From: a virus
Length of the DNA: 37,307 nt
IMG/VR virus record: IMGVR_UViG_3300036985_001916
Coordinates: 1-37,307 of that record
Direction: 5' to 3' (one strand)
The translations under genes and the position numbers were made by a program. The notes below the pieces were generated by a model, which did no database searches, was not told the DNA's origin, and saw only the letters and a list, made by a program, of their open reading frames with translations. Shown here piece after piece: positions 578 through 37,307 of the stretch (position 1 is its first letter; each line of letters opens with the position of its first letter).

Positions 578-800
578 CTTACCCCATTTCATGGTATGGT
601 GTGTCTGCTCGGCTGGGAGGGTCAACCGCTGGCGGCAGAGCGACGTTGTTCAGGTAGCGACCAGTATCAGAGAGCTACCACGGTGGGAACCCCCTTCAGT
701 GGGGAACCGATTAGAGCCGCTGATGGAGAGGACGCTCCCTCTTAACGTCTGATCGCGTGGTGCCTGGATCGTCAGGAGCCACCCCACTCTCCGCTCAACG

Positions 801-866
801 CCGAGTCCCTCGGTTTGTTCGCGGATCATGGGTAGGTTCGCCCCAGACTGGGAGAACTCTACCCAT
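801..866. other. Two tandem hairpins
   Basis: A 5-bp stem (CCGAG/CTCGG, 801-813) is followed by a long stepped hairpin. ATGGGTAG at 828-835 pairs with CTACCCAT at 859-866, GTTC 836-839 with GAAC 854-857, and CCCA 842-845 with TGGG 849-852 around a GAC loop. That makes 16 paired bases with only small bulges. There is no T-tract, so it is not a standard terminator. It could be a DNA structure at the origin or an RNA structure in the leader of the late transcript. Confidence 0.65.
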
Positions 867-928
867 CTTCCAACTCACATCCGTTCCCTCTTCCTCCTCA
901 GTACCTGATCTACACCCCTCATGGGCCT

Positions 929-972
929 ATCCTCCGCCCCCGCCCCCCAAAGGGGCGGGAAGGACGGAGGAT
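929..972. other. Nested GC-rich hairpin
   Basis: Outer arms ATCCTCCG (929-936) and CGGAGGAT (965-972) enclose a perfect inner stem CCCGCCCC (39 to 46 of the 900s) with GGGGCGGG (952-959) around a 5-base loop. Very stable, no T-run on either side. It sits just before the GATC repeat array. Confidence 0.65.
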
Positions 973-1000
973 CTGGCCACCCTCAGTACATCACCTCTCC

Positions 1001-1060
1001 TGATCTTCTCCTGATCTTCTCCTGATCTTCTCCTGATCTTCTCCTGATCTTCTCCTGATT
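1001..1060. repeat. Five tandem 11-bp GATC repeats
   Basis: Five perfect head-to-tail copies of TGATCTTCTCC begin at 1001, 1012, 1023, 1034 and 1045, followed by a partial TGATT at 1056. Each holds one GATC, so Dam sites recur every helical turn. The GATCTTC core recalls the GATC-starting 13-mers of the enterobacterial oriC unwinding element, and this phage encodes its own Dam-type methylase (13465-13935). The array is seen directly; the origin role is inferred. Confidence 0.85.
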
Positions 1061-1122
1061 CAGGTGATCCTCCATGCGTCCACCCGCCAGGCTCCAGTTT
1101 TGGGGCCGTTTCTGACTCTCCG

Positions 1123-1185
1123 TGTTCTATTTCGGTACACGAGTGTTCCATTTTGGTACACGAGTGTTCCATTTCAGTACATTGC
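1123..1185. repeat. Three 21-bp iterons
   Basis: Three abutting imperfect copies at 1123-1143, 1144-1164 and 1165-1185. Each begins TGTTC(C/T)ATTT and carries a central GTACA. Junctions form a dyad GGTACAC-GA-GTGTTCC. The 21-bp period (two helical turns) is typical of initiator-binding iterons. The array runs straight into the next repeat family at 1192. Confidence 0.8.
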
Positions 1186-1191
1186 ACAGCC

Positions 1192-1263
1192 CGGACAATC
1201 TGTCCGGACAGCCCGGACATCGTGTCCGGACAACCTGTCCGCCTTGTCCGGACAATCTGTCCG
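1192..1263. repeat. 22-bp array of TGTCCGGACA palindromes
   Basis: Perfect 10-bp palindromes TGTCCGGACA start at 1201, 1223 and 1245, exactly 22 bp apart. Between them lie half-sites (CGGACA at 1192 and 1214; TGTCCG at 1236 and 1258). The same hexamer is clustered again at 6206-6412. A dimeric phage DNA-binding protein, either an initiator or a regulator, is the likely ligand, but its identity is not visible. Confidence 0.8.
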
Positions 1264-1637
1264 CCCTTAGCGTTGACACCTCTACTGCGTATCCAGTTGG
1301 TTTTTGGATTTTGCGGGGTATGAAGGGGTGGGAGGGGGGAATCCCGGATCGAAAAGCGATTCCGATCTGAACCAGGCCGATTCCCTCTGGCCAGATCCAG
1401 AAAGGCCAGATCCAGACCGGCCCCGGTTGTGGCCATGGGTACCAGCCAGCCAGCCATGGGCGGATCATGGGCCGGGTTGTGGCCTGGTATCACCGGCTGG
1501 CCACGGGTTGGGGAGGGTTGGGAAGGTGCGCCAGCTACAACAGGTATGGGCCTGATATCGGTCACTCGTGCGCCTTGCGCCTTTCTCCCTATGACAGGCC
1601 CCATGAAAATAAATACGCAGAGATGGGGCTTAGGCTA

Positions 1638-5485: not shown

Positions 5486-5733
5486 GCGAGAACCTGATCA
5501 AGGTCGGTGACACCGTCCTCTGTCGTGGTGGGTGGGGCAGCGAAGCCCCCCAGCCGGTCACCATCACGCACCTGGAACTGTGCGTCGAAAAGGGCGACAA
5601 GTACGGAGTGCCGGTGACCGAATTACCGTGGAGCGAGAAAGGCCGCGCCGTGGTGGACATGAACAACGGCCATTGGGCGTACGGGTCGCACATTGAGCCG
5701 TTGGTACAGCGGATCGGTGATGAACCGGTCTAG
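5482..5733 (+). CDS. Last early-operon protein, beta-rich, unknown
   Basis: An 83-residue protein with two recognisable blocks: an N-terminal IKVGDTVLCRGGWG and a C-terminal VVDMNNGHWAYGSHIEP. I associate this pairing with small phage proteins having a KOW/SH3-like beta fold of unknown role. It closes the rightward early operon; a convergent hairpin at 5797-5836 follows. The ATG overlaps the preceding stop. Confidence 0.7.
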   Translation: MSENLIKVGDTVLCRGGWGSEAPQPVTITHLELCVEKGDKYGVPVTELPWSEKGRAVVDMNNGHWAYGSHIEPLVQRIGDEPV

Positions 5734-5872: not shown

Positions 5873-6145
5873 TCAAACCTCGTCATTCGGCGGCAGCACC
5901 TCCCACAGGTGCTTATTCGCCTTGTGGGCGGCTAATCCGCGAAAGGCGGCTGACAGCTGACATCGGACGAAATACTCCGGTCGTCGCAACCTGGTGGTGC
6001 CTTCCCACCCTTGCACGGTTCGCCAGCTAATCCCGGTGCCGTCTTCTTGTGTCCAATGTTTGGCGAATTTTCGGCACGTCTCACGCAGGATCTCCCGCCG
6101 GAAAACGGCAATCTGAATCGGTGTCCATTGAATCGACGGCAGCAT
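5873..6145 (-). CDS. Helix-turn-helix DNA-binding protein
   Basis: A 90-residue protein reading as an XRE-like helix-turn-helix: FRREILRETCRKFAKHW as helices 1-2 and a recognition helix around SWRTVQGWEGTTRLRRP (about 40-56). It is small enough to be a stand-alone regulator or origin-binding protein. A clean AGGAG site precedes the ATG. The upstream DNA has a hairpin (6170-6203) and ten TGTCCG sites (6206-6412), which makes this protein a candidate ligand for that motif; this is inference from proximity. It is the last gene of the leftward replication operon, possibly with its own promoter. Confidence 0.7.
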   Translation of the reverse strand: MLPSIQWTPIQIAVFRREILRETCRKFAKHWTQEDGTGISWRTVQGWEGTTRLRRPEYFVRCQLSAAFRGLAAHKANKHLWEVLPPNDEV

Positions 6146-6169: not shown

Positions 6170-6203
6170 CCCCTCCCTCCCCTACTATGTAGGGGGGGAG
6201 GGG
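6170..6203. other. GC-rich hairpin upstream of the HTH gene
   Basis: CCCCTCCCTCCCCTAC (6170-6185) pairs with the 15 bases at 6189-6203 around a TAT loop, leaving one bulged T. In the leftward transcript it lies about 25 bases before the helix-turn-helix gene and has no T-run. Reading rightward it is followed by TTT only. Possible attenuator or transcription pause site. Confidence 0.6.
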
Positions 6204-6205
6204 TT

Positions 6206-6412
6206 TGTCCGGATCAGATCCCCGCTTGTCCGGACAACCATGTCCGGGAGTTAACCTACTGCGAACAAAGACCTTGCGCGTTTGCGGTTTTCGGTTGTCC
6301 GCTACGTGTCCGCCACCATGTAAGAATTACGTGTCCGGGCGTTTTCAGGCCCAAATTTGCAAATTCTTACGTTTTGTCCGGGTTTGTCCGCCCTTTGTCC
6401 GCCCCTTGTCCG
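6206..6412. repeat. Cluster of ten TGTCCG sites
   Basis: TGTCCG occurs at 6206, 6226-6237 (as perfect 12-bp TTGTCCGGACAA), 6241, 6296, 6307, 6332, 6375, 6385, 6396 and 6407. The last four are phased by 10-11 bp. Between them lie a perfect palindrome AATTTGCAAATT (6354-6365) and a 9-bp inverted repeat GTAAGAATT/AATTCTTAC (6320-6328 and 6362-6370). Same hexamer as the array at 1192-1263. The stretch 6146-6417 holds no gene. Confidence 0.75.
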
Positions 6413-6417
6413 GGCTG

Positions 6418-6900
6418 CTACGGATCGAAGGGGTCAACAAAGCCCTTTTCCTTCCAGTATCTTTCTTCCGCAGCCTGACAGGGGGGGCAGCGCCCGTATT
6501 CCCGGCCAGCCAGCGCCTCCCCGCAAGAAAAGCACGCCCAGAGGCCGTGGGGGCCATCGGAGGCCACCGGCACCACATCCCCGCCCCCGCGTTCGATCAT
6601 CGCGTCTAGGCGTCCCTGAGCCGCCGGGGTGAGTATCTGAGCCACCGCGAGGGCTTCGGCGTCAGGCCGTGACAGATTGCCGTCGTATTCGGCAATTGCG
6701 GCCCGTTCGTCGTATTCGGCCAAATAGTCGAGAATGTCCGCCTTGTGGTCACGGATCGCTTGACCGTCCGCCGGGGTCAGCCGGTGACCCGGTTCGACAA
6801 ACAGGGTGTCCCCGTCAGCCCGTAATTTGAACCCGTCCCGCTCCAGTCGCAGCAGCAGGTCAATCGCGCCATCCGCAAAGGGCAACGGTACGTCTCGCAT
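6418..6900 (-). CDS. TubC-docking-like and zinc-ribbon protein, primase-associated
   Basis: A 160-residue protein directly downstream of the primase-helicase, with its ATG overlapping that gene's stop (TAATG). Residues 10-60 resemble the TubC N-terminal docking-like fold (LLLRLERDGFKLRADGD..., LTPADGQAIRDHKADILDYL), which often occurs next to or fused to phage and plasmid primases. The C-terminus has Cys123-x2-Cys126 and Cys138-x2-Cys141, a zinc ribbon. It probably assists the replication enzyme, for example through DNA or protein contacts; the precise role is unknown. Confidence 0.7.
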   Translation of the reverse strand: MRDVPLPFADGAIDLLLRLERDGFKLRADGDTLFVEPGHRLTPADGQAIRDHKADILDYLAEYDERAAIAEYDGNLSRPDAEALAVAQILTPAAQGRLDAMIERGGGDVVPVASDGPHGLWACFSCGEALAGREYGRCPPCQAAEERYWKEKGFVDPFDP

Positions 6901-8945
6901 TAAAACCTCCCCGCTTGCTGACCGCTGGTCAGACTGACCGCTAGCCGGATCCGCTGGTCAGGGTCACGCGCAAAGACACCGTCCATGCGACGGATCGTGC
7001 GCCCGATGGTGTCGGTCTTCTCGCCGAGTTCCGTCGCCAATTCCTCGACCGACAAGGGCCGGTGGGCGACGAGCGCCTTGATGCGCTGCCAGACCGGCAG
7101 CACGGCGGATAACTCCTCGCTCGACGCCACGTCGAACCGGTCAACCCGTGTCGTCGTCGCATCGAACGTCAGCCGCAGACCGAAGGCCGGAAGCCGTCTC
7201 GATGTATTCGACTTTTTGTGAGACAGGGCGACTTCGATCACGTTGCCCCCGTCACCGGCATCGTTACTGCGTTTGATATGGAACATGCTCCGAGCGGCTG
7301 CGCTCCAGAACGTGGAACCGAACGGTTTCTCCTCCCCATGTTCCAGCGATTTGGTCGTATGCGCGAGATGCAGCGACCCCACTCCCAACTGACGCACGGC
7401 CCTGAAAAAGGCCGTCGCGTGTTCCGCGTCTTCGGGCCGTCCTGGCACCGCGAACCCGACACTGTCGCAGACAAAATACTGAATGCCGTGCTGCACAATG
7501 TGCCTCTGTAGTCGGGCCGCTTCCGACACCATGGGCGAGGCGCAGCGCACGTAATGCAGGGTGTCACGCGGCATCCCGTCCCAGCCGCACAATCGCTCTA
7601 ATCGTTCCCGGTGGTCTTCAGGACTAAACTCCCAGTCCCCGTACAAGACCTTGATGCCGCGTCTCGCTAACGTCGAGGCGATATGGAGCGCCAAGTACGA
7701 CTTCGCGCTGCCCCCGTCGCCGAACAGAATCATGGGGTGCCGTTGGAGGATCGGAATGCCGGATACTTCCCAGTTGCTGACGACTTCCGGCAGACCGTAA
7801 TCCGCCAGCGGCTGAATCGGGGTGCCTTCACTTTCCGCCTGCTGCACCCGCAACGACAACGTCTCGACCGCCCCCAACCAGTCCAGACCGGCGGCACCGG
7901 AGCGTCCCGCACAGGACTGGGCCAACGTCGCCCGTGTGCGCTGGGACGAGAAGTTGGCGCTGCTCCACAGTAGGACGCCATCAATGGTTTTCGCGCCCAT
8001 CAGGGTCGTGGTCACGGTCAGTTCACCGTGGAGGTCACGGTCACGATCACGGTGGAGTTGTTCCGCCCGGAGCGTAATACCCAGCGCCGGATACTCCAGC
8101 GAGTAGGCTCCCTCGCCCAGCTTCACGAATGTCTGCTCCGACCGCAGGAGGTCAGGAATGCTCCCGTGTTCAATCACCGGCATCTCGACCGGAGGAGCCG
8201 TCGCCAGGTCGAGGAGCCGCGCTGCCGTGCCACCTGAGGCAAACCAGTCCGAGACATCCCCGTGTGCTTGTAGACCCGGCAGGGCCACCAGCGTGGCCGT
8301 CAGACCCGCTGCCGTCAGTTGCTCGACGACACTGGCCGCGTGGCGACGACCCGGCACATCATGGTCAGGGACGACATACACCTGCGTGGGGGCCAACGCG
8401 ACAAGGGCAGCGGTTTCTTCCGCCTTCCACTTCCCGGCCCCACCACAGTTGGTGGTCGCGGCCAGCCCGTGAGCGCGGCAGGTTTCGACATCCTTCTCGC
8501 CTTCCACGATCCACACTACCGGTTGACCCGTGAGGTCGGGCCAGCGATACAGCGCACGGGTCTTACTGGCTGACCAGATCCAGCCACCGGCCCCATCGGG
8601 TCGTCGCTGCCGGAAACTCTTATCCGCGCCTCGCACAACTTGGTGCAGGAGGGTGCCATCCAGATCGGTGTAGTCGTAGACCGCCGCCGCACTGGTCGAG
8701 CGCAACACCGGGGTCGGCTCCGGCACCCGGACGACTTCCTCAAACAGATCCGCCAGCGTCAGACCCACCGACGACAGGATGTCGGCGGTCGCGCACCCCG
8801 CATGGCAGTGGATCAGCACCCGCCCGTCCTTCTCGGTCGCTGACACCGACGCCACCCGATCCTCATGGACGGGACATTGAAGCGCGTAGCCAGCCCCCGC
8901 CCGTTTGGCGGACGGGAACCGACCGACGACTTGGTCGAGCGTCAT
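6900..8945 (-). CDS. Primase-helicase (CHC2/TOPRIM primase fused to RecA-like ATPase)
   Basis: A 681-residue replication protein. A CHC2-type zinc finger at about 24-51 (CPVHED, then HCHAGC) is followed by a TOPRIM domain with EGEKD at 148-152 and the Asp pair PDHD at 193-196. A RecA-like ATPase has Walker A GDGGSAKS at 409-416 and Walker B around YFVCDSVG (490-497). The C-terminal ~70 residues look like a winged helix (LSVEELATELGEKTDTIGRTIRRM). The start at 8945 overlaps the previous stop (ATGA); the longer frame back to 9071 is low-complexity Arg/Gly sequence overlapping the upstream gene. It should lay primers and unwind DNA at the fork, recruiting host polymerase, since no phage polymerase was found. 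Confidence 0.9.
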   Translation of the reverse strand: MTLDQVVGRFPSAKRAGAGYALQCPVHEDRVASVSATEKDGRVLIHCHAGCATADILSSVGLTLADLFEEVVRVPEPTPVLRSTSAAAVYDYTDLDGTLLHQVVRGADKSFRQRRPDGAGGWIWSASKTRALYRWPDLTGQPVVWIVEGEKDVETCRAHGLAATTNCGGAGKWKAEETAALVALAPTQVYVVPDHDVPGRRHAASVVEQLTAAGLTATLVALPGLQAHGDVSDWFASGGTAARLLDLATAPPVEMPVIEHGSIPDLLRSEQTFVKLGEGAYSLEYPALGITLRAEQLHRDRDRDLHGELTVTTTLMGAKTIDGVLLWSSANFSSQRTRATLAQSCAGRSGAAGLDWLGAVETLSLRVQQAESEGTPIQPLADYGLPEVVSNWEVSGIPILQRHPMILFGDGGSAKSYLALHIASTLARRGIKVLYGDWEFSPEDHRERLERLCGWDGMPRDTLHYVRCASPMVSEAARLQRHIVQHGIQYFVCDSVGFAVPGRPEDAEHATAFFRAVRQLGVGSLHLAHTTKSLEHGEEKPFGSTFWSAAARSMFHIKRSNDAGDGGNVIEVALSHKKSNTSRRLPAFGLRLTFDATTTRVDRFDVASSEELSAVLPVWQRIKALVAHRPLSVEELATELGEKTDTIGRTIRRMDGVFARDPDQRIRLAVSLTSGQQAGRF

Positions 8946-9142
8946 GACTCTTCTCCGGGGATCTGCGCGGCCTCCGCTGCCGCGCTTTCCGCGATCAACC
9001 ACGCCGCGCCCACCACCTCCACGGCATCGCCGAGTGTCGCGGCTTGCAGGAACACGTTGGTCTGTAACCATGCGGGGTCATACACCACGCGAGTGGTTTC
9101 TTCGTCCTGCTCGTCGTAATACACCGTCAGCATGACCTTCAT
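8942..9142 (-). CDS. Small protein of replication operon, unknown
   Basis: A 66-residue protein between the coiled-coil protein and the primase-helicase, coupled to both by ATGA overlaps. Beta-like N-terminus (MKVMLTVYYDEQDEETTRVVYD), then an Ala-rich acidic helix. No known domain. Context suggests a replication or recombination accessory protein. Confidence 0.6.
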   Translation of the reverse strand: MKVMLTVYYDEQDEETTRVVYDPAWLQTNVFLQAATLGDAVEVVGAAWLIAESAAAEAAQIPGEES

Positions 9143-15105: not shown

Positions 15106-16788
15106 TCACTGATACCCCTGCGCTTGCAACTGCCGCGCTTCCAGTTCGTTAATCGCCCCCGCTGACAACGCACCCGCAATGCCGTATTTCTTCACAATAC
15201 TGATCTTGGTATCGTCAAACACGACGTAGTTGCGAGTGGACTGCGTTTTTTCAAGCGCGTCCAGCTCCTGCTGCCAATGGTCAAACGGAAGACCCTGGGC
15301 TTTCTCTCTTGCAATTCTGTCTTTTAAAAGACCAACGCGAAACGACGGCCCACGGGAGCCTTCGTCAAGATACTTAATGCCCTGAATACCCGCAGCACGT
15401 AAACCCTCTTCTGGGTCTTCGTCCATCCGAATCCTTCGCAGCGCATCGCCCATGTTTTCACCTTCTTGCGGCTGCAAGTAGGTGGGTAATTTCTGCCGCA
15501 CCTTCTCGCTCTGCTGGCTCAGGGGCGCATCCCAATCAAGGAAGTCCTCGGGATCGGCGTCGATGTTCACTTCATACATATGCCCACGGCCCTTGTTGAT
15601 CTGGCCTGTTGGGGCCGCTTTCACATGTTGCCACGAATCCATTAATTGCCGCATTTCGTCAGAGGTAGACTCCATCGCGTCAAGCCGTGCCGCGTATAAC
15701 TTCGCAGAGCCAAGATCGTCCATTTTGAGTGAATTGATGTAGCCCCACAGGTCTTGCACTCTATTGATTGCCTTGGGGTCATTGCGTATTTGCGCGGCTG
15801 ACACGACGGGCTTGCCCCCAACTTCAAACTGTGGCGCGAGGGCATTTCTATAGTCAGTAGCTACATTTTCGTTTTCCGCGAAATACAGCCCACGTAAATA
15901 AGACTGATTTCCTTCCCCCGTCCCGATCTTGCTCAGGCTGAACTGGTCGAAGTCATGCGGAGAGCCGTGAAAGGCTTTGATGCCCTGCTTGGCCTTAGGC
16001 GCATCCATTAAGTCTAGGGCCGACTCAAACTGTGCCTCATATTGTCCGGACAAATTGTAATCGCTTCGCACCTTGGCCGCGCTTCCGGATTCTTTTAACA
16101 TGTCGTGCGTCTGTTGCGTAACCTGACGGGCGTGTTCTGGTCGCATACCCTGTTTCTGGAGCGTCTCCACCACGTCGGAGTAGTCTTGAATCACCGACAC
16201 CGGGACATCCTGAACCCCCAGCGACTGAAGCGCACGTAGCCGGTGTTGACCCTCAATGACGTTGCCGTTCTGATCCACAATCAACCGCTCAATGTATCCA
16301 TCCTTAGATGACATCTGTTGGGCGATCTTGTTCACCTTTGCGGCGTCATCTGCCGCCGCCGACATGCCACCGCGTAAGGTGTCAATATTCACCGTGCGGT
16401 TGCCGACCGGGATACCGTAGTCAAAGTTGGCATCGGCTACATCACGCAACGATTCACGGGCCGCTTTGTATGGCAACTTCTTTGCGCCAGCCACGCCACG
16501 TAACGCCTTCACTCCGCCCACCAGCGGCATCCCTGCCGCCAGGAGTTCTCCCAGCAACGCCGCCCGGTTCCCCTCGTCACTCATCGGCAGACCCGTGAAG
16601 CCACCCACGCCAGCAACGCCACTCAACAGCGCGTTGCGGATCATGCCGCCAATGGAGTCTTCTGACGGAGCATAGTTCTTGGTATTGGGCAGGTTCGGCC
16701 CCTGCCACTCGCTCAGCATGTCCTCTGGCACCAGACGCGACGGCAGCAGCGCACTCATGGTTGGCGCTTTGGCTTGACGTTCGCTCAC
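15106..16788 (-). CDS. Polyvalent-type protein: ParB-like plus ADP-ribosyltransferase-like domains
   Basis: A 560-residue protein from GTG 16788 (GAGGAC upstream, GTGA overlap). Residues 45-100 are Gly/hydrophobic. A ParB/Srx-like core spans about 130-205, with the hallmark VIEGQHRLRAL at 177-187. From 271 a domain resembles the ADP-ribosyltransferases of phage polyvalent proteins: FHGSP (273-277), GLYFAENENVATDY (300-313), a DFLDWDAPL block (415-423), GIQGIKYLD (467-475) and YVVFDDTKISIV (521-532). Such multidomain proteins of phages and conjugative elements are thought to enter the host with the DNA and neutralise host factors. The ART half is visibly AT-richer than the ParB half. Active sites and delivery are unproven. 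Confidence 0.75.
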   Translation of the reverse strand: MSERQAKAPTMSALLPSRLVPEDMLSEWQGPNLPNTKNYAPSEDSIGGMIRNALLSGVAGVGGFTGLPMSDEGNRAALLGELLAAGMPLVGGVKALRGVAGAKKLPYKAARESLRDVADANFDYGIPVGNRTVNIDTLRGGMSAAADDAAKVNKIAQQMSSKDGYIERLIVDQNGNVIEGQHRLRALQSLGVQDVPVSVIQDYSDVVETLQKQGMRPEHARQVTQQTHDMLKESGSAAKVRSDYNLSGQYEAQFESALDLMDAPKAKQGIKAFHGSPHDFDQFSLSKIGTGEGNQSYLRGLYFAENENVATDYRNALAPQFEVGGKPVVSAAQIRNDPKAINRVQDLWGYINSLKMDDLGSAKLYAARLDAMESTSDEMRQLMDSWQHVKAAPTGQINKGRGHMYEVNIDADPEDFLDWDAPLSQQSEKVRQKLPTYLQPQEGENMGDALRRIRMDEDPEEGLRAAGIQGIKYLDEGSRGPSFRVGLLKDRIAREKAQGLPFDHWQQELDALEKTQSTRNYVVFDDTKISIVKKYGIAGALSAGAINELEARQLQAQGYQ

Positions 16789-35195: not shown

Positions 35196-36623
35196 TTAAT
35201 GTGCCATCCAACTTGAGGCTTGCGACGTGCGCCGTGGTGACCGATTAACCGTCTGTGGGGCCACACGCATCTGTGAACGCCCACTAATAATCAAATACCG
35301 GGTGGCATCCATTAAATGGTCGCCACTTTTGACAATCTTACCCTGCTCGTCTCGATGATACTTACGAAACTCGTTGCGCCAGTTGCGAAGATGCTCCTGC
35401 ACCTTGAGCCGCCCCGACACCAGCAGGTTCCATGTCTCGGTAATCCCGGCTTCCACGGCATTGACGGCAGGGTCGAGCTTGAGGCCCAGCCGCCCGTAAA
35501 TCTGGATCAGCGTCCGACCATCAATCTGGCTACTGCCGGAGGAGGCGGGGTCAATCACGCCAGACATCCACGCGCCCCGGGCTTTCACCGCTTCGGCGTG
35601 GCTGGCGGGTTCGCCTTGCCCCTGATAATGCTCGTCATACAGCACAATTTGGCCCGAGCCGGGATTTTGTGCGCCCCAGATAACAGCAGTGCGGTTCCAG
35701 CCCACATCCATGGCGTAGACCTTGCGCCACGTGTCGGGGATTTCGGCGGTCGGGACAATAATGTCCTTCTCGGAGATGGGATAAATGGCTCCCGACCCCA
35801 GACTGGGTTCGCCTTCGGTTCGGGCCGCAATCTGGTAGGGCGGCGTGGTGGCCATCAGGGCGCGGCGTTCATCGACATCCAGATGCGGGACATCTTTCCA
35901 TCCGGCTTGGATATACGTCTTGAACTCAGCAGCCAGATCCGTTTCCGGCTCCAAAAAGCCCTTGACCACGGCGCTCATGCCCTGCAACGGCGTGAACGTC
36001 ACCATGACTATACCCTTGGTGGTCACGGTGCGGTAGAGCATTTCGGTATAGCAGTCGGACGGCGGTTCCTCGTCGCACCAGATGACATGCTTGCTGGTGC
36101 CTTCAAACGACGGTCGCCCCTGCTCGTAGGTTTTGAGGCCCAGTAGGCTTTGGCCCCCAGACACATGTTTGATCACCGCGCCTTCCAGCGCCCCCGGCAA
36201 CCCTCGGCTGCTAATCGTGGAGACAATTAGGTGGGCGGGAATCATGCCCGTGCCTGGCAGTTGCACCGATCCCAGCAACTTAGCTTGGACAATATCGCGG
36301 GTGGTCTGGCTGTTCGTGCCAACGGCCCAACACTCGACCGGGGTGTCAAACCGACGACCGGCCCACCACTTGGGGTAGAGGCCGGTCAGGTGGCAGGTCA
36401 GTTCGTAGGCTCCCGCTTCCGATTTGCCCACGCGGTTCGCGGCCATAAACAGCCGCTCTTTAAAGACTTTGCCTTGTGAGAAGAACTCCAGATGGCGGGG
36501 GTAGAGCGCCCGGGCCAAGGGGCCGCTGTCGGCAAAGAAGTTGGTAAACCGGGACGACGACCGGCGTTCCGCTTCATCCATCAGGCGCTGAAACAGCACC
36601 TGTTCGTCTAGCGTCAGTGGCAT
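35196..36623 (-). CDS. terL: Terminase large subunit
   Basis: A 475-residue DNA-packaging motor. ATPase: Walker A ANRVGKSEAG (62-71), Walker B VIWCDEE (180-186) with the catalytic Glu pair, and coupling motif TFTP (209-212). Nuclease (RNase H-like): Asp306 in YAMDVGWNRT, Asp358 in GVIDPASSG and Asp439 in DHLMDATRY. It threads DNA into the procapsid and cuts it, in the Terminase_6-like group. The P22-type neighbours suggest headful packaging, which would give circularly permuted, terminally redundant DNA and fits the assembly result. Confidence 0.95.
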   Translation of the reverse strand: MPLTLDEQVLFQRLMDEAERRSSSRFTNFFADSGPLARALYPRHLEFFSQGKVFKERLFMAANRVGKSEAGAYELTCHLTGLYPKWWAGRRFDTPVECWAVGTNSQTTRDIVQAKLLGSVQLPGTGMIPAHLIVSTISSRGLPGALEGAVIKHVSGGQSLLGLKTYEQGRPSFEGTSKHVIWCDEEPPSDCYTEMLYRTVTTKGIVMVTFTPLQGMSAVVKGFLEPETDLAAEFKTYIQAGWKDVPHLDVDERRALMATTPPYQIAARTEGEPSLGSGAIYPISEKDIIVPTAEIPDTWRKVYAMDVGWNRTAVIWGAQNPGSGQIVLYDEHYQGQGEPASHAEAVKARGAWMSGVIDPASSGSSQIDGRTLIQIYGRLGLKLDPAVNAVEAGITETWNLLVSGRLKVQEHLRNWRNEFRKYHRDEQGKIVKSGDHLMDATRYLIISGRSQMRVAPQTVNRSPRRTSQASSWMAH

Positions 36624-37307
36624 TTAATCGTGAAGCTTCTTGAGCAACGCCGCCATGCTGGCTTTCAATTCCGCATCACTGAGACTCGCGGTCGGGGTCG
36701 AAGTCACATCCAAATCCAGACTCTGACGCGCCTGTCCAAACAGGCGATCCATGATGTCCTTGAGGATCGGCGCACTGGGCGCAATGGCACTGAGTCGATA
36801 CGCCTGTTCTCCCGCCTCCAGCTTTGCGTTCATCACATCGGCATCGACCACCGTCTGCCACTTGCCCTGCGCGTCCCGCGCCTGCATGTGGGTGACGCCC
36901 TCGGCGGCGGTCAACTGCGCTTCCACGAGCCGGTCAAACCGCTTGGACACGGCTTGTTTCCACGCCGCCAGCAGTTCCGTCTTTTCACGGACGCGCATGG
37001 TCTGACGAATCTTGGGGCCATTCACAATGTCACCCTTGGGTCTGTGCCGATACCCGGGGCCAAGTTTTGGTGTTCTCATAACGACGCCCATCTTACCCTA
37101 TTTCATGGTATGGTGTGTCTGCTCGGCTGGGAGGGTCAACCGCTGGCGGCAGAGCAACGTTGTTCAGGTGGCTACCAGTATCAGACAGCTACCACGGTGG
37201 GAACCCCCTTCAGTGGGGAACCGATTAGAGCCGCTGATGGAGAGGACGCTCCCTCTTAACGTCTGATCGCGTGGTGCCTGGATCGTCAGGAGCCACCCCA
37301 CTCTCCG
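36515..37307. repeat. Terminal direct repeat, copy B
   Basis: Partner of 1-793 at a fixed offset of 36,514, with no insertions or deletions. The ~31 substitutions lie between about 128 and 671 of the repeat. It contains the 5' end of the large terminase, the small terminase and 216 bases of upstream DNA. Confidence 0.95.
36624..37091 (-). CDS. Putative terminase small subunit (repeat copy B)
   Basis: The second allele of the 155-residue protein at 110-577, identical in amino acids. Here the upstream extension is blocked by TAG at 37100-37098, which fixes the start at ATG 37091 or the internal ATG five codons later; a GGG-TAAG lies just before it. The gene ends directly at the large-terminase start. 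No helix-turn-helix was identified with certainty, so function is by place and size. Confidence 0.6.
   Translation of the reverse strand: MGVVMRTPKLGPGYRHRPKGDIVNGPKIRQTMRVREKTELLAAWKQAVSKRFDRLVEAQLTAAEGVTHMQARDAQGKWQTVVDADVMNAKLEAGEQAYRLSAIAPSAPILKDIMDRLFGQARQSLDLDVTSTPTASLSDAELKASMAALLKKLHD

Follow-up and report, generated by a model that had tools for sequence, protein, structure and literature searches.

In phage lambda, the palindromic iterons lie inside the gene of the initiator, O, and are read by the winged helix of this protein, and in phage P4 two separated clusters of one short site, ori1 and crr, are found with the alpha protein, both sites of such an ori/crr pair being needed in cis. 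The locus described here is part of the window (the whole stretch of DNA analysed, 37,307 bp, called W in the comparisons) and contains an array of the palindrome CGGACA-N3-TGTCCG. As in lambda and the O-like systems, arrays of this palindrome found here in other phages sit inside O-like initiator genes; however, the array of the window is intergenic and its presumed reader is a primase-helicase. Two clusters of the site, A and B, one of which is near the primase-helicase gene, are present in W and in two relatives, L002 and L003, a likeness in layout to the P4 pair.

Phage-inducible chromosomal islands (PICIs) have their origin directly after the 3' end of the replication gene, where sets of iterons surround an AT-rich stretch. 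Their Pri-Rep-ori module combines a primase/helicase-type protein with this origin (PMC6092414), and cluster B resembles the layout. In contrast to a PICI, which is a satellite, the window is a tailed phage, with a small ORF, p160, between the primase gene and cluster B, and with a second iteron array 5 kb off. Structured phage RNAs transcribed from the terminase region are represented by the cabRNA of staphylococcal phages (PMC10686824), from which the RNA of the window differs in being divergent from the small terminase gene (terS), in having a -10 box of its own and in its covarying helices. Mycobacteriophages with RNA-based prophage origins lack RepA (PMC7157519); they have in common with the window a noncoding RNA near the candidate replication region, whereas the window has a primase-helicase.

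The genome and its intergenic control region

The window is an IMG/VR virus record that encodes P22-type portal and coat proteins and a Terminase_6 large subunit, and is the genome of a P22-like podovirus, an uncultured virus of bacteria. Its sequence is taken to be circular, with a length of about 36,514 bp. Positions 1-793 and 36515-37307 are 96% identical, with 31 differences located between identical runs of 127 and 121 bases. This pattern fits an assembly bubble, and true terminal repeats were therefore set aside: the 793-bp ends are probably two alleles of the terS region in a circular genome, left by a strain bubble in the assembly. Two contigs, those of L003 and L105, continue across the end junction of W, so that the ends of the window contig need not be physical ends. 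No similar DNA was found in the annotated phage collection searched, and a weak pointer to the host is given by the binning of one relative, L163, in a Spartobacteria MAG. A large ORF on the minus strand (15106-16788) contains a ParB-like stretch and an ADP-ribosyltransferase-like (ART-PolyVal) stretch. The relatives compared, about 15, are all metagenomic contigs, several of which are incomplete, and the counts of presence and absence across them are few and phylogenetically linked.

Positions 801-1263 had been described in the initial annotation as one composite, iteron-regulated origin with two hairpin blocks and three tandem repeat families. Both hairpin blocks, and an additional small hairpin, can be read from the sequence (table), and the three arrays were found where they had been placed, far above chance, by Tandem Repeats Finder and, in agreement with it, by a gap-free repeat search. 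The former returned TCTCCTGATCT in 5.8 copies at 996-1059 with 100% match, a 21-mer in 2.9 copies at 1122-1181, and the TGTCCG family at 1186-1265. The 11-bp array contains the five expected GATC sites, while the other two units are better described in different terms. The three 21-bp iterons do form an array, with 2.9 copies of a 21-mer that is itself an imperfect palindrome, GTGTTCC-N5-GGTACAC, and has no occurrence elsewhere in the genome. What had been counted as three 22-bp palindromes is also a genuine array, consisting of four 15-bp palindromes, CGGACA-N3-TGTCCG. The interval encloses the arrays and leaves outside three related elements, namely an RNA that starts at about 600, a conserved core at 1289-1367 and a second cluster of half-sites at 6206-6412. 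GC skew, which had been suggested as a check, tracks the gene strand and decides nothing on the origin position.

Table. Coordinates of the features discussed, as positions in the window
Feature	Position	Strand	Remarks
-10-like box TATGGT of the structured RNA	595-600	+	TAnnnT, same position in 11 of 11 aligned sequences
Structured RNA, conserved part	595-760	+	P1 607-641, P2 653-679, P4 708-715 with 748-755
Small hairpin CCGAG-TCC-CTCGG	801-813		read from sequence; conserved in L002 and L003
Hairpin block 1, ATGGGTAG...CTACCCAT	828-866		arms invariant, loop differs in L002
Hairpin block 2, ATCCTCCG...CGGAGGAT	929-972		two compensatory pairs, W versus L002
GATC 11-bp array	996-1059	+	copy number varies; absent in L002
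21-bp array, imperfect palindromes GTGTTCC-N5-GGTACAC	1122-1184	+	absent in L002
Cluster A, four CGGACA-N3-TGTCCG palindromes	1192-1263		putative origin-type iterons
Conserved core	1289-1367		linked to the terminase module; kept even with a different primase
p90, small HTH-like ORF by cluster B	5873-6145	-	relatives in phages without a W-type primase
GC-rich palindrome, TACTATGTA centre	6170-6203		beside cluster B
Cluster B, 11 TGTCCG half-sites, mostly direct	6206-6412	+	several 10-11 bp apart; best origin candidate
p160, TubC_N-like ORF	6418-6900	-	between primase gene and cluster B
Primase-helicase (Toprim + AAA_25)	6900-9071	-	predicted C-terminal winged helix encoded near 6903-7100; presumed initiator
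Small terminase subunit (terS)	36624-37091	-	same gene as 110-577 in the overlapping end

The closest relatives separate the arrays from one another. L002 and L003 have the same primase as W (94% identity at the amino acid level) in DNA that is about 85% identical, and L163 is a closer fragment (93% identical). When W, L002 and L003 are aligned, most of 600-990 is strongly conserved. The GATC sites number five in W, two in L163, one in L003 and zero in L002, where an unrelated array with a period of 21 occupies the place; the 21-mers are about two in L003 and none in L002. The CGGACA array is intact both in L002 (96% identical) and in L003, with a spacer inserted in the latter. Since L002 and L003 keep the replication genes but not the GATC and 21-mer arrays, which are absent from the one and reduced in the other, the three arrays do not make up the one origin initially proposed; such a loss in close relatives with the same replication genes is what the initial annotation had named as refuting it. 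The core beside the arrays, which goes with the terminase module, likewise argues against a single origin. The interval, which separates the early operon from the late (terminase) operon, is a control region of composite make-up, and the relatives divide it into four parts: the RNA, the GATC repeats with the 21-mers, the CGGACA palindromes and the core. From the sequence comparison, the GATC and 21-bp arrays change fast and are specific to lineages, and they probably act as operators. Thus, repeats crowded into one intergenic stretch need not make one device.

The CGGACA palindrome and its presumed reader

The palindromes of cluster A start at 1192, 1214, 1227 and 1249 (spacing 22, 13 and 22), two of them overlapping as TGTCCGGACA, and bring ten TGTCCG/CGGACA half-sites within 72 bp, against a maximum of 3 in 200 shuffled genomes. 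TGTCCG forms exactly two clusters, A and B, in each of W, L002 and L003. Cluster A, present in all three, is kept with the primase-helicase; it was not found upstream of terS in seven contigs (two of them near-identical, some partial) that share the late genes of W and in which the primase had no match.

The strongest evidence that cluster A consists of origin-type iterons was obtained from a reverse scan, in which all viral contigs of IMG/VR were searched for two palindromes within 30 bp, with genes ignored. The scan returned 25 stretches, as compared with 1 for a permuted palindrome of the same composition, and 22 of the 25 are outside the W clade and G009. Thirteen of these 22 (several being near-copies, with about eight separate lineages when L190 is included) lie inside genes that match or resemble winged-helix replication initiators: the gene carrying the array matches an initiator PHROG in L185, L186, L187, L189, L198 and L203, and weakly in L183, and it resembles those initiators in L184, L191, L192, L197, L201 and L204. 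By adding the array of L190, which begins 2 bp after the stop codon of a primase-helicase gene, 14 of the 22 stretches are in, or abut, initiator or primase-helicase genes. Eight of the 22 are outside recognised initiators, and among these eight are arrays in two terS-like genes (L194, 2339-2896, and L205, 1924-2547). The intragenic copies of the palindrome fall in different reading frames, and therefore selection acts on the DNA; spacings of 22-23 and 13 bp recur. The assignment of cluster A as an origin-type iteron array is, on these sequence comparisons, well supported. Of the original proposal of an iteron origin, then, the part that concerns the CGGACA array stands, owing to this recurrence in initiator genes and beside primase-helicases of other phages, while the composite does not. 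The motif strings occurred in none of the papers searched.

Cluster B, with 11 half-sites in 207 bp, is located close to the 3' end of the primase operon, past the 3' ends of both p160 and the primase gene. The AT content of the gaps between its half-sites is 49-59% in W, 46-63% in L003 and 47-49% in L002, the value for the genome being 41%. The GC-rich palindrome beside it has counterparts, recognised by eye from the sequence, near the clusters of G009, L190, L098 and L094. In G008 and G009, the primases of which are 41% identical at the amino acid level, clusters of the exact palindrome, one in each genome rather than two, are directly after or overlap the 3' end of the primase gene. GGACA sites are enriched 3' of the primase-helicases of L077 and L080, and variants of the motif are found in L098 (TTGTCCCC) and L094 (TTGTCGGC). 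No CGGACA cluster was detected in the incomplete contigs of L004 and L006, which have closer primases. Strongly enriched, lineage-specific hexamers are observed 3' of related primase-helicases in L011, L014, L015, L016, L022, L066, L070, L078 and L079. It is possible that these stretches are origins with other iterons, so that an iteron-bearing stretch 3' of the gene may be common.

The presumed reader of the site is the primase-helicase itself. Its C-terminus is predicted to form a winged helix, with pLDDT values of about 90-95 over that part; matches to it in the PDB are weak and dominated by winged-helix proteins, and its profile aligns with the helix of the initiators (hhalign probability 72%, E 3e-5). 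The winged helix probably reads the CGGACA palindrome. The sequence R-x-x-R-R is present in four primases that accompany the motif and absent in three that do not, but it was discarded as a recognition code, since the best profile alignment does not place it in register with the R-x-x-R-R of the O-like proteins. The small HTH-like protein p90 was similarly rejected as a reader of TGTCCG, as it occurs in phages that lack the motif, and no p90 was detected in G008 or G009, both of which have the motif. The initial view that the genome encodes no obvious initiator is doubtful, given the predicted winged helix at the end of the primase-helicase. Likewise, in place of a possibly new mechanism, a variation on a known one is more likely, because origin-type iterons recur elsewhere and the presumed initiator has a predicted winged helix.

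The structured RNA and the conserved core

The RNA adjoins the small terminase gene, from which it diverges, and is located between the start of terS and the arrays. Besides the window, it is carried by L102-L108, L110, L116 and L163, and at its start a TAnnnT box and a hairpin whose loop reads GGAGGGTCAACCGCTGG are common to two clades. In the alignment of 11 sequences, a four-helix structure pairs in 92.4% of the cells and two-sided changes are found in 16 of the 30 pairs. The score for covariation reached 0.473, whereas slid versions of the structure did not exceed 0.135, a comparison that favours the structure over its controls, as it was drawn from the same, related sequences; the two-sided changes are still well beyond those of shuffles. 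The match to the RNA model scores 153 bits. In the helices G-U exceeds A-C by 31 to 5, and therefore the plus strand is the RNA. Single-sequence folding of 600-800 was not significant, and the comparative test alone worked. Neither the window nor any of five relatives reached the gathering score of an Rfam family, and searches for tRNA and tmRNA were empty. A group I intron was considered and dropped, since the supported pairing is a plain nested helix, and a search for further copies by the loop sequence yielded, outside the known clades, L163 as the only strong match, the others scoring as chance. Thus, the identification of 595-760 as an unlisted, structured phage RNA is well supported by the aligned sequences. 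The hairpins at 828-866 and 929-972, downstream of it, may be its 3' part or terminators.

A different distribution was found for the core. A search with terS returned 19 loci, and the contigs examined from them share the coat protein (93-97%) and TerL (82-93%) with the window, while the W-type primase had no match in 15 records of these terS relatives (several contigs being partial). Different arrays occupy the corresponding place in the terS relatives, and many of them have periods of 16-21 bp (GTGTCAAAAGATTGACGGTGG, TGTCCTCAAAAGGGGACAG, CTAGCACCTGGATGGC and others), and no CGGACA array was found in those examined. A core of about 75 bp upstream of terS is kept in all of them and, because none has a match to the W-type primase, the core goes with the late module. 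Its pattern matches 11 contig stretches (L102, L104-L108, L110-L113 and L116) and is internal in each. The natural guess is that the core is a candidate packaging site or a late-promoter or late-control site. One contig, L114, ends inside the core, which is too weak, by itself, for a cos reading. Other repeats were noted in related phages. L140 has a two-cluster palindrome of its own, CGTCAA-N4-TTGACG, at 1625-1770, near the core, and at 5493-5570, upstream of an early gene, and L094, a related phage, has 7.7 perfect copies of CCGACCAGGTGAGCT upstream of terL (6958-7072).

Candidate start sites and their significance

The best explanation, which we regard as probable though well short of secure, is that the region is composite and that the iterons of cluster A and cluster B form a two-site replication system read by the primase-helicase. 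The direct evidence consists of conservation, motif sharing, gene linkage and RNA covariation, from which we infer that a protein binds the iterons, that replication is initiated there and what each of the two clusters does. The primase-helicase would bind the iterons of both clusters, most likely through its C-terminal winged helix, and would open and load the DNA at one of them, most probably B. The other, cluster A at a distance of 5 kb, would be a second site, either ori/crr-like or for copy control, or may be where replication starts. Of the remaining elements, the GATC and 21-bp arrays would be operators, the hairpins would be part of, or follow, the separately transcribed RNA, and the core beside cluster A would serve the late or packaging module. 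Cluster B is preferred as the start site, with A as its distal partner, on the basis of the PICI-like layout and of the GC-rich palindrome, cluster A having no AT-rich gap of its own. The absence of an AT-rich stretch inside cluster A and the weakness of the AT-rich gap of cluster B in L002 are points against this explanation. So are the lack of a CGGACA cluster in the incomplete contigs of L004 and L006, the single cluster of G008 and of G009, the eight scan matches outside recognised initiators and the mismatch in register of R-x-x-R-R.

The main rival assigns the start to cluster A, with B as an accessory: the initiator would bind the four palindromes and melt the flanking DNA at 1144-1183 or 1273-1312. 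These flanks are 60-62% AT, as compared with a genome mean of 41%, and the exact N3 palindromes with their 22/13 bp spacing are as in the O-type intragenic arrays. However, the AT-rich left flank is made of the 21-mers that are absent in L002, and the clusters of G008, G009 and L190 are found at the 3' end of the primase-helicase gene, which is the position of cluster B, so that a start at cluster A is unlikely, if still to be taken seriously. It is quite unlikely that all arrays, cluster A included, are repressor or activator operators at divergent early and late promoters, unrelated to replication starts. Palindromes at two-helical-turn spacing between divergent operons, the rapid turnover of the other arrays in relatives and the two-cluster palindrome of L140 would agree with such a role, but the CGGACA palindrome is found in initiator genes or beside primase-helicases of many unrelated phages, and the distribution of the HTH-like p90 does not follow that of the motif.

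The position of the region directly upstream of terS, the core that follows the terminase genes across relatives, the end of contig L114 and the two scan matches in terS-like genes would be consistent with a region whose main function is to start packaging (as pac or cos) and whose arrays are repeats bound by the terminase. Yet the arrays differ among phages with closely related terS, most of which are without CGGACA, and the core is internal in the 11 contig stretches that contain it; this is the least probable of the explanations weighed, and the packaging reading may be right for the core, though not for the arrays. Finally, the RNA, transcribed rightwards in the direction of cluster A, might act together with the core and the CGGACA clusters, in which case the RNA would prime or control a two-site origin read by the primase-helicase. 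Such an arrangement, which we consider very unlikely, would, if true, be a mixed RNA-and-protein origin in a podovirus.

Besides a well-supported, unlisted phage RNA, the region yields one 15-bp palindrome, CGGACA-N3-TGTCCG, that marks presumed origins in phages sharing little else, and that is common to phages with an O-like initiator and phages in which a primase-helicase would be the initiator. If this is true, a sequence scan could serve to locate origins in uncultured phages, and the recognition site of the winged-helix initiators would become a directly testable question.
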